Assembly: GCA_000403315.2 (NCBI GenBank)
Contig: KE159636.1
Location: 370,042 to 434,041 of the forward strand
Direction: 5' to 3'
Length of the DNA stretch: 64,000 bases
Origin: Lachnospiraceae bacterium A2
GTDB lineage: Bacteria > Bacillota > Clostridia > Lachnospirales > Lachnospiraceae
The notes below the pieces were generated by a model. That model made no database searches and was not told the origin of the DNA. It saw nothing but the letters and a program-made list of their open reading frames with translations. Below are positions 2,706-40,412 of this stretch, in pieces. Made by a program: the position numbers and the translations under genes. The number at the start of each line of letters is the position of its first letter. The stretch's first letter is position 1.

Positions 2706-3545
2706 ATGGCGAAGAAAAAATGGCGGGGCTTTTTCTGGATACTGCCCAGTTTCTCAGGGGTGGCGGCCTTCTACCTCCTGCCCTATGCAGACGTTGTCCG
2801 CCGCTCCTTCCTTGGGGCGGTAGACAACCGGTTTGCAGGGATTTCAAATTATCAGGCAATTATGGGGAACACGGCGTTCCGTCTGGCTGTCAGGAATACC
2901 ATAAAATTCACTTTGTCCTGCATCCCGGTATTAATCCTGCTTGCCCTGGCGTGCGCGGTGGCGCTCTGCCGGAGTAAATATGGCGGCGTTATAAAAAGCG
3001 CATTTCTTATGCCTATGGCGCTCCCGGCGGTTTCCGTGGCGCTGGTGTGGCGGCTCCTGTTCCATTCCCAGGGTCTTTTGAACTACTGGCTGGAACATCT
3101 GGGCTTGGCAGGGCAGGACTGGATGAATGGCAAAAGCGCCTTCTGGATCCTGGTCCTTAGCTATATCTGGAAAAACCTGGGCTATGACATTGTACTGTGG
3201 ATGGCGGGACTGGCAGGGATTTCAGAAAATATTTACGAGGCGGCTAAGGTGGATGGGGCAGGGGAGTGGAAATGCTTCCTGCATATTACCCTGCCAAACT
3301 TAAAGCCGTCCTTCTACACCATAACCGTGCTGTCCTTCCTCAATTCCTTTAAGGTATTCCGGGAAGCATATTTGGTGGCGGGGGATTATCCCCATGAAAG
3401 CATCTATATGATGCAGCATTTATTCAACAATTGGTTCCGTAATTTTTCTTTTGATAAGATGGCGGCAGCGGCAGTGGTGGAAAGCGTGGTATTGCTGGGG
3501 CTGATCCTGCTCCTGCAAAAAACATGGGACAGTGGGGCAGAATGA
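2706..3545 (+). CDS. Sugar ABC transporter permease (MalF/UgpA type)
   Basis: Inner-membrane permease of 279 residues for the upstream solute-binding lipoprotein. It has six predicted membrane spans and the cytoplasmic EAA loop (YEAAKVDGAGEW...LPNLKP, about residues 188-212) that docks with the ATPase. Both are typical of binding-protein-dependent sugar importers. The start at 2706 is preferred over an in-frame ATG at 2667 because GAAGGGA precedes it at normal spacing and the protein then begins MAKKKWRG, as family members do. It ends in an ATGA-type overlap with the second permease. Confidence 0.9.
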   Translation: MAKKKWRGFFWILPSFSGVAAFYLLPYADVVRRSFLGAVDNRFAGISNYQAIMGNTAFRLAVRNTIKFTLSCIPVLILLALACAVALCRSKYGGVIKSAFLMPMALPAVSVALVWRLLFHSQGLLNYWLEHLGLAGQDWMNGKSAFWILVLSYIWKNLGYDIVLWMAGLAGISENIYEAAKVDGAGEWKCFLHITLPNLKPSFYTITVLSFLNSFKVFREAYLVAGDYPHESIYMMQHLFNNWFRNFSFDKMAAAAVVESVVLLGLILLLQKTWDSGAE

Positions 3546-39604: not shown

Positions 39605-39988
39605 ATGAAAGCTATCAATTTTGGGAAATTGCAGGCGGGGGAGCTGGTACAAGTGCCACGCACTCAATTTGCGCCGCAGCGGTACGGCTGGAATGGCTGG
39701 TTATTTAGTGAGGCAGTGGTAATAAGGAAAGCCAGAAGTAAAAAGAATAATAAGCCTATGGTGGTAGTGGAAATGCGAACACCAAAAAGCAGCAATGATT
39801 ACGGAACGATAGAAAAGGCTTTCTATGCGGAGTATGTATTTCAAACAAATGCAGTAAATACCGCAAAAAGATTTTTAGCAGAGGACGGTGTAACAACGAA
39901 AGAGGAATTTTACAAATTTATAGAAATGGACGACGTGACGGGCTGCGACTGGATAAAGTTTCTTGTAGATAAGGGATTTTTATTTTGA
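39605..39988 (+). CDS. Phage early protein of unknown function
   Basis: A 127-residue basic protein. The N-terminal half is beta-rich (MKAINFGKLQAGELVQVPR, WLFSEAVVIRKARSKK). The C-terminal part is acidic and helical. I do not recognise a family. CGAAAGAGAGGTAA precedes the ATG, the same ribosome site used by the first gene of the operon. The non-coding tRNA-like region follows directly. Confidence 0.65.
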   Translation: MKAINFGKLQAGELVQVPRTQFAPQRYGWNGWLFSEAVVIRKARSKKNNKPMVVVEMRTPKSSNDYGTIEKAFYAEYVFQTNAVNTAKRFLAEDGVTTKEEFYKFIEMDDVTGCDWIKFLVDKGFLF

Positions 39989-40012
39989 TATAGGCGGCAG
40001 CGCCGCCAGCAC

Positions 40013-40105
40013 CCGCCCTTAATTTAGTGGCAGAATACCGAGCTTGAAACTGACTATAGCAGTACAAGCCTATAGCGGGGCGCTGGTTCAATTCCAGCAG
40101 GGCGG
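40013..40105 (+). ncRNA. tRNA-like structure with replaced anticodon arm
   Basis: A 93-nt element with a perfect 7-bp acceptor stem (CCGCCCT 40013-40019 / AGGGCGG 40099-40105), a 4-bp D-stem (ATTT / GAAT) and a perfect 5-bp T-stem (GCTGG / CCAGC) around TTCAATT. The tRNA elbow bases are all in place: U8, A14, G15, G18, G19, A21, G53, T54, T55, C56, A58, C61. Between D- and T-arms are 44 bases instead of about 22. They form a hairpin (GCTTG..ACTG / CAGT.CAAGC, loop ACTATAG), or a pseudoknot in which loop CTATAG pairs with CTATAG at 40070-40075. No CCA is encoded. GC-rich hairpins flank it at 39993-40007 and 40114-40132. The surrounding gap 39989-40412 holds no supportable gene. Confidence 0.7.
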
Positions 40106-40412
40106 TTTTGGTAGCAGGCATGGCGAGCCTGCACAAGAGGGCAGCAGGCTAATAGCTGCATCTGGATACCGTGAAAAAATAGCAGCGGTCATACCAGCTA
40201 GAGAGTATGTGGACGGTCAACAAGTTTTCTGCGGCTTTTTAATGTGAAAAGCAGCCCACACGGTAAATAAATACGCCAGAGCAGGAGTAAAGCGGCATGG
40301 AAAGACAGAGAGCGCCGCCGAAAGGAAAGGCTTAAGGGATTTGGCAAAGCAAGGAATTGTATATCACGGTGGCGGCAGTTGTAATGCGGGCTGCCGCCAG
40401 AAGAGGCAGGGA

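Follow-up and report, generated by a model that had tools for sequence, protein, structure and literature searches.

A tRNA-like RNA in the slot of type II hammerheads, upstream of a structured leader RNA: a candidate processing element of phage operons

A tRNA-like RNA with a replaced anticodon arm

A stretch of 64,000 nucleotides (nt) from Lachnospiraceae bacterium A2 (NCBI GenBank assembly GCA_000403315.2, contig KE159636.1, positions 370,042 to 434,041 of the forward strand), here called the window, carries in a prophage a transfer RNA (tRNA)-like RNA in which 45 bases take the place of the anticodon arm. It starts 24 bases past the stop codon of a gene for a protein of 127 amino acids (aa), and the noncoding stretch that comes next holds a leader RNA (40107-40265) followed by a mini open reading frame (mini-ORF) with an RxPP motif (Table 1). 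The tRNA-like RNA lies between two genes on the same strand and its acceptor and T stems covary in relatives, which qualifies it as an intercistronic element. Among relatives of the leader RNA, the position of the tRNA-like RNA is in most loci held by a tRNA or tRNA-like RNA or by a type II hammerhead.

Table 1. Features around the tRNA-like RNA (positions in the window; bp, base pairs)
Feature	Position	Strand	Remarks
Upstream gene, 127-aa protein	39605..39988	+	without Pfam or PHROG match
GGCGGC-AGC-GCCGCC hairpin	39993..40007	+	between 127-aa stop codon and tRNA-like RNA
tRNA-like RNA	40013..40106	+	Rfam RF00005 match; acceptor/T covariation in relatives
Acceptor stem	40013-40019/40099-40105	+	7/7 pairs
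D arm	40022-40036	+	4 bp, loop AGTGGCA
45-base anticodon-arm replacement	40037..40081	+	CCG/CGG, GCTTG/CAAGC and ACTG/CAGT pairings, two CTATAG copies
CTATAG copies in replacement arm	40054-40059 and 40070-40075	+	
T arm	40082-40098	+	5 bp, loop TTCAATT
Discriminator T	40106	+	
5' domain of leader RNA	40107..40166	+	hairpin I at 40114-40132; predicted RNase Z cut 40106/40107
Conserved core of leader RNA	40167..40265	+	P1 40167-40173/40259-40265, inner hairpin, 3-bp pseudoknot, GTCAACAAGTTTT, TTTTTAATGTGAAAA hairpin
Shine-Dalgarno-like AGGAG	40283..40287	+	
Mini-ORF with RxPP stalling motif	40297..40335	+	MERQRAPPKGKA*; window MERQRAPP

Over 40013-40106 the Rfam tRNA model (RF00005) scores 39.6 bits against a cut-off of 29, with an E of 7.1e-5 for the window, and its alignment handles the middle of the RNA as an insertion. 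The initial annotation, made from the letters of the sequence, had proposed a tRNA-like RNA with acceptor, D and T arms that is unable to decode, and both proposals hold: all three arms are complete, positions 40037-40081 contain no 5-bp anticodon stem with a 7-nt loop, and ARAGORN reports neither a tRNA nor a transfer-messenger RNA (tmRNA) in the window, where no tmRNA structure with a tag frame is found. The additional claim of a hairpin or pseudoknot in the anticodon position stands as far as pairing potential goes. The hairpin-plus-pseudoknot pairing of the 45-mer was matched by none of 300 shuffles, with an ad hoc score written after the sequence was seen, and in folding energy the 94-mer does not stand out (z -1.45; 17 of 200 shuffles equally or more stable). 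The four distinct homologues of the window's subtype (the window, L024, L116, which is identical in sequence to L086, and L133; loci are cited by L numbers) vary only outside the proposed pairs, by a 3-nt internal-loop insertion, one loop base, one variable-loop base and D-loop bases. Covariation therefore speaks neither for nor against the pseudoknot, and the check for covarying stems in homologous phages, which had been suggested along with the claim, was not passed for this invariant part. By its pairing potential, 40037-40081 may form a pseudoknot. In the full 9-bp hairpin the 3' strand directly adjoins the second CTATAG, so that hairpin and pseudoknot are, on steric grounds, probably alternatives, unless the outer 5 bp of the hairpin are open.

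A blastn search with the tRNA-like RNA in 61 genomes (its own and 60 related ones) returned the window's own copy only, and in phage records short chance pieces only; the leader RNA gave no blastn match in phage and plasmid records. These RNAs therefore escape such sequence searches. A first pattern scan for tRNA elbows with an oversized middle yielded 47 loci, many of them ordinary class II tRNAs or chance hits, with one close homologue (L024).

Contents of the slot upstream of the leader RNA

Relatives were gathered with R1, a covariance model built for the leader RNA. At 70 bits or more, 92 matches were obtained (30 + 62) and 87 were entered after five re-fetched contigs (L064, L074, L085, L095, L117) had been dropped. 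The 87 entries comprise 70 distinct sequences, two of which are cut by the end of the stretch (L146 and L109, the latter being the contig of L052 again, hence one repeat among the 51 mini-ORFs considered below). In the remaining 68 loci with enough upstream DNA, the slot 5' of the leader RNA contains a tRNA or tRNA-like RNA in 36, a type II hammerhead in 27, a promoter in four and none of these in one (L138), all counted as distinct sequences and not as independent events. Four loci (L083, L089, L112, L153) were first scored as 'none' and became tRNA-like after a post hoc widening of the T-loop pattern, which was later tested on shuffles. The tRNA(-like)s were divided into 29 of type A and seven of type B, the latter with a shorter 5' domain, and these names were given after sequences and end positions had been seen. 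The acceptors of L059, L068, L096, L115 and L152 were placed differently in two passes, L096 being the weakest (6/7).

As a control, a complete acceptor stem (7/7) and T stem (5/5) with the 3' end in the slot were required: 32 of the 36 tRNA(-like)s passed, compared with 0/27 hammerhead loci, 0/5 other loci and 1/1020 shuffled upstream stretches. The hammerhead test was negative in all 36 tRNA loci and in all 1020 shuffles. The four promoters are sigma-70-like (TTGACA-17-TATAAT with 0-2 mismatches), and none of that quality was found in the 62 tRNA or hammerhead loci tested. With positions counted from where the model match begins, hammerhead cleavage is predicted to place the 5' end of the downstream RNA at -53 to -57 in 27/27 loci, and an RNase Z cut after the discriminator is predicted to place it at -54 to -60 in 29/29 type-A loci (-59 in the window). 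Hammerhead cleavage and type-A tRNA 3' processing would thus give a 5' end at the same place, and at the level of sequence the tRNA-like RNA and a self-cleaving ribozyme are exchanged at one position. This exchange bears on the idea that tRNA-like RNA and leader are one uncut tmRNA-like molecule, in which a tRNA-like head and a pseudoknotted body lead to a short ORF that serves to stall a ribosome. The order of the window (tRNA-like RNA, pseudoknotted RNA, tiny ORF) and the potentially structured 45-base replacement of the anticodon arm would suit it, but the loci with a hammerhead or a promoter instead of a tRNA, a tRNA that closes on itself upstream of the leader and the lack of a tmRNA call by ARAGORN make it unlikely.

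The exchange can also be followed behind relatives of the 127-aa gene, which were drawn from viral contigs and bacterial genomes; the named ones belong to Lachnospiraceae, Acetatifactor, Lachnoclostridium and other Clostridia. Here, tRNA-likes with differing anticodon arms (L049, L052, L054, L056, L059, L067, L068), an intact tRNA with anticodon CAU (L070, L073, L081) or a type II hammerhead (L057, L058, L065, L066) are each followed by the leader RNA. In L050, L053, L060, L061 and L063, type-B tRNA-likes stand beside the 127-aa gene with no leader RNA and with a ParA-like ORF next; the contigs of L050 and L053 carry the leader RNA elsewhere (L153 and L103, respectively). An intercistronic element kept beside the 127-aa gene in many loci might be a cis-regulatory tRNA mimic that is T-box-like or binds the neighbouring 127-aa protein. 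Such a role is highly improbable, as the upstream genes vary between loci, a hammerhead can take the place of the mimic and the 127-aa relatives L055, L069 and L076-L079 show no element within 330 bases.

Hammerheads in the slot

Type II hammerheads were defined by CUGANGA and GAA, the A15.1-U16.1 pair, an NUH cut site and stems I and III, with the molecule open at stem II, and this definition applies in the 27 relatives' loci. CTGA(C/T)GA, GAA and the A-U pair are present in all 27, which had been selected by core letters and minimum stem lengths; a C at the cut, present in 27/27, was not a selection criterion. Each of the 23 distinct hammerhead sequences pairs in stems I and III, and the covariation of these stems exceeds 500/500 shuffles (the 5' strand of the L121 hammerhead is misassigned in the slot and stem analyses), and L120 has a compensatory GGC/GCC stem II. 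Judged by their sequence, the slot hammerheads are ribozymes. The Rfam hammerhead cut-off is reached at the slot only in L057, L058, L065, L095 and L120, and sub-threshold matches occur in L098, L160, L181 and at sites in L114 and L156.

Conserved and decayed parts of the tRNA(-like)s

The 36 slot tRNA(-like)s were selected for at least six acceptor pairs and four T-stem pairs; the acceptor stem is complete (7/7) in 33 and the T stem (5/5) in 35. Both stems covary, with two-sided changes in 11 of 12 pairs among 27 distinct sequences, so that for these stems the covariation check was passed. A 4-bp D stem is present in just 22 of the 36, a canonical anticodon arm in nine and an encoded CCA in none. 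The anticodon position is variously filled by a normal arm, by a pseudoknot-like insert, by a loop of 11-13 or of 6 nt, or by a hairpin whose loop has 4 nt, and in L056 an 82-base stretch replaces D and anticodon arms together. That the replaced arm is the functional point was not supported by the comparison, given how widely the arm varies in relatives and that the whole tRNA is swapped for a hammerhead in 27/68 loci. Because of this arm diversity and replacement, decoding-tRNA mimicry, synthetase binding and ribosome entry are poor explanations, and processing is the common denominator; of the partners proposed for a tRNA mimic, RNase P fits, its cleavage being predicted. We infer that the tRNA-likes are maintained as processing substrates and not as adaptors.

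Phages carry tRNAs, and the canonical arms in 9/36 slots would agree with a phage tRNA, or a decoy that serves translation or counters a tRNA-cutting defence, that is now degenerating and adjoins the leader incidentally. This reading is very unlikely: 27/36 lack a canonical decoding arm though acceptor and T stems covary, and a ribozyme with the same predicted 5' end occurs in the same position.

Host tRNA genes lack an encoded CCA in all 30 examined of 60 matches, and the host must therefore process the 3' ends of CCA-less tRNAs. CCA-less tRNA precursors are RNase Z substrates, a status which fits the CCA-less tRNA-likes but does not single them out.

Further tRNA-likes of phages, apparently without relation to the leader RNA, have elbows resembling those of tRNA-Gly but lack a canonical anticodon arm; they occur in L003:11302-11403, L036:336-437, L032:1540-1636, L007, L023:2111-2201 (6 bases after one ORF and 12 before the next), L026:4446-4536, L039, L040 and L047. 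In L002, L006, L012, L015 and L025 (IMG/VR samples 3300043781 and 3300043812), a TTGGG..CCCAA-type pairing replaces the anticodon arm of a shortened tRNA-like.

The leader RNA as a structured family

A pattern scan with the most conserved piece of the leader RNA found it in 83 viral stretches and, over all loci gathered, in 77 distinct places, 48 of which have the long-range stem or a close variant. Alignment A3 contains 46 rows, 45 of them distinct (L138, L145 and the second L107 copy were left out). Pairing is present in 96.6% of its cells, and 19 of 23 pairs are changed on both sides, the pseudoknot included. The covariation score is 0.462; shuffles give 0.205, and sliding gives no more than 0.132. 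None of 500 shuffles reached the alignment in four of five covariation measures, and 46/500 reached it in the remaining one, the number of pair types. The three pseudoknot pairs are present in all rows (AGC/GCT, GGC/GCC, GGT/ACC, AGC/GTT), and by this covariation the leader contains a compact pseudoknotted domain. None of 4227 Rfam families matches 40107-40335, and at E up to 10 Rfam gives, over 39900-40400, nothing other than the tRNA and one sub-threshold antisense match lying over it.

R1 scores 109.1 bits on the window core, which is a single copy in its genome. In genome searches with strict filters and with the own genome counted, carriers were 9/392 in the order at E<=0.001 (five below 40 bits) and 13/397 in the family at E<=1e-5 (one below 40 bits); at E<=1e-5 in the class, the own genome was the only one of 391. 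The leader RNA is rare in genomes.

Several features of the leader and its surroundings may be recorded separately. The invariant CAACA.GTTTT and TTTTAA.G.GAAA runs (window 40218-40254, alignment A3) may form a U-A.U triple helix. In L107:7842-8036 (minus strand) the core is partly duplicated in tandem with RxPP after the last copy only, and L138:820-921 retains the core while tRNA, hairpin I and RxPP are all missing, as in a natural deletion. A relative of the CAACARGTTTT hairpin lies about 85-130 bases 3' of RAGATH-8 (RF02687) in L084, L102, L118, L149 and L150, 180 bases 3' of it in L124 and 690 in L101, often in tandem; the Rfam RAGATH-8 model may lack a 3' domain. RAGATH-8 is above its cut-off in 9/29 records tested, but it is a different RNA from the leader: the window has no RF02687 match, and among eight class-A records tested, RAGATH-8 occurs in L098 alone, at a distance of about 1.7 kb from the element.

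The RxPP mini-ORF

The sequence M-x(1-7)-R-x-P-P begins 17-31 bases after the core and spans 6-12 residues from Met to the second Pro. It follows 22/27 hammerheads and 27/29 type-A tRNAs, that is 49/56 processed loci, and was found in 0/4 promoter, 0/7 type-B and 0/1 empty loci and in 0/1025 control windows further downstream. Codons for R and both P vary synonymously among the mini-ORFs. The x residue in 51 of them is A (23), E (14), S (8), G (4), P (1) or D (1); the sequence past PP is not conserved, and a stop follows it in three of the 51. The mini-ORF thus places RxPP in a short ORF upstream of genes, as in RAPP-type peptides. According to passages of PMC10951233 and PMC12992588, a minimal RxPP is sufficient for ribosome arrest, most readily as RAPP and RGPP and partly as RSPP and RDPP, and ribosomes would be expected to arrest at the RxPP described here.

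Position between genes and the prophage setting

Elements of both kinds mostly begin close to a stop codon. Their start lies -4 to +10 bases from a stop codon in 20/27 hammerhead loci and -10 to +30 bases in 28/36 tRNA loci, distances taken from ORFs of 60 or more codons from stop to stop, with no control. In L156 (minus strand), four type II hammerheads are found within about 2 kb (1551-1619, 2246-2318, 3015-3086 and 3434-3506). Three begin 0-2 bases past a listed ORF and the fourth directly after TAA; three have an ATG within about 20 bases, and only that at 2246-2318 has the leader RNA behind it. In L050, L060, L061 and L063 the 127-aa gene has one type-B tRNA-like on either side, the two being about 0.5 kb apart; in L050 (3899-3964 and 4403-4470) the second overlaps the end of a 141-aa upstream ORF. 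In L083 and L091, two type-B tRNA-likes lie further apart on one strand, and the opposite strand of 12 loci scanned gave no match. This repeated use of an element between genes is the reason for speaking of punctuation. A type-B tRNA-like lies 48-49 bases before a 254-aa ORF, ParA-like by reading, in L050, L053, L060, L061 and L063; for the window itself, control of partition functions, as initially suggested, finds no support.

The host assembly comprises 5.2 Mb. The right part of the window is a prophage with Rep, SSB, DNA-methylase, ParA- and ParB-like genes, and terminase, portal, capsid and tape-measure genes were also assigned by reading of ORFs. As tRNA genes are common attachment sites, the tRNA-like RNA might be taken for the remnant of an integration site or for a functionless chance tRNA fossil. 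It stands among early genes with no nameable integrase beside it, and covariation, the recurrent position and the repeated copies are held to contradict this scarcely credible explanation already. A G+C hairpin like that upstream of the window's tRNA-like RNA occurs in about 20 of 29 type-A tRNA loci as counted by eye, or in 26/29 under a laxer script rule (5 Watson-Crick bp anywhere in 45 bases), in both cases with no control; after RNase P cleavage it would remain as the 3' end hairpin of the upstream mRNA.

A proposed processing element

The tRNA-like RNA is quite probably an intercistronic processing element for RNase P and RNase Z, swappable with a self-cleaving ribozyme, in a prophage early operon. 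Host RNase P would cut just before it (40012/40013), and RNase Z would cut behind the discriminator (40106/40107). By analogy with tRNA biology, the two cuts would split the polycistronic transcript and give the downstream RNA a defined 5' end. The freed RNA would begin with a hairpin, followed by the compact pseudoknotted domain, the Shine-Dalgarno sequence and the RxPP mini-ORF with a stalled ribosome, and where mRNA decays 5'-to-3', structured leader and stalled ribosome could protect or regulate the downstream gene block. Within this proposal only cutting matters, so that the anticodon arm would be free to decay and the unit could be swapped for a hammerhead, an intact tRNA or, at the leader, a promoter. 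A wider version is tentative, its chances falling somewhat short of even: phage operons of Lachnospiraceae and kin (as judged from the named relatives of the 127-aa gene) would be punctuated by two interchangeable cutters, hammerheads and arm-decayed tRNA-likes, and at one position the cut would free the pseudoknotted leader with its RxPP arrest mini-ORF. Leader and parked ribosome would together act as a '5' cap', protecting the downstream block or setting its timing.

A number of observations weigh against this interpretation. The 5' ends predicted for the seven type-B tRNA-likes lie at -25 to -31, the slot of L138 is empty beside a core, and behind several relatives of the 127-aa gene both the elements and the leader RNA are missing. 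Hammerhead cleavage leaves a 5' hydroxyl and RNase Z a phosphate, so that the two would not share a protection that depends on end chemistry alone. One or two extra bases separate the hammerhead core from stem II, and at E up to 10 Rfam finds no hammerhead in L092, L093, L104, L129, L140, L166, L168 and L180 (seven distinct sequences); the hammerhead claim in these eight sources therefore rests on the criteria scan, covariation and the shuffle control. The Rfam tRNA model reaches its cut-off in 5/18 tRNA(-like) sources under fast filters and misses L086, nearly the window's sequence. It is thus a weak witness, and the case for many tRNA(-like)s rests on inspection of the arms, acceptor/T covariation and the shuffle control. 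The nine tRNAs with a canonical arm might also decode, and the missing CCA is the rule in the host and not special to the tRNA-likes. The RxPP is absent in 7/56 processed loci (L093 ends with its contig; in L107 a second core comes first), and 14/51 mini-ORFs are REPP, a form which does not occur in PMC12992588 and for which arrest is not described in the passages cited above.

If the wider version is true, at least some orphan phage hammerheads would gain a function. With tRNA(-like)s in the hammerhead's exact slot and the same predicted 5' end, 'cutting the operon here' becomes directly testable. The findings also add, for Bacillota phages, a new family of structured RNAs that may be coupled to an arrest peptide, and a natural series of tRNA-likes that indicates how far a tRNA can decay while under selection.

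Comparison with known systems

In the tRNA punctuation of mitochondrial transcripts, the t-elements of plant mitochondria and the mascRNA of MALAT1, a tRNA or tRNA-like RNA cut by RNase P and RNase Z makes the ends of adjoining RNAs. The difference here lies in phage operons, in elements exchangeable with hammerheads and in one conserved leader with an RxPP mini-ORF that they feed, cleavage being predicted. The parts are individually of known kinds; the assembled module is called new, though an earlier report may exist, and no description of it was found among the matches listed in the openly licensed PubMed Central literature, which does not cover subscription papers. Known non-tRNA substrates of RNase P include phage M3 RNA, phage C4 antisense RNA and intergenic and operon mRNAs (PMC11143913), which likewise are phage or operon RNAs; the passages concerned list them singly and describe none that a ribozyme can replace or that a conserved RNA follows. 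For bacterial and phage hammerheads, passages of PMC3088659 (2011) and PMC10085705 (2023) state that the role is unclear or unknown. The type II hammerhead (RF02276), whose phage context is already known, has no match in the window but occupies the tRNA-like's slot in 27/68 loci, and neither the exchange with a tRNA-like RNA nor the attached leader RNA occurs in these passages.

The ermC-type 5' stabilisers of Bacillus subtilis are similar in that a stalled ribosome near the 5' end stabilises long downstream stretches of mRNA (passages of PMC3997798). They differ in that the mini-ORF described here is not drug-induced, and its stabilising effect would follow by analogy. Upstream ORFs with RGPP or RAPP are said to be absent from many Gram-positives including Bacillota (passage of PMC12992588). 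The RAPP-type arrest peptides ApdA and ApdP share with the mini-ORF a short reading frame with RxPP (passages of PMC10951233 and PMC12992588), whereas here the peptide reaches its second Pro within only 6-12 residues, counted from Met, and the frame follows a structured phage RNA.
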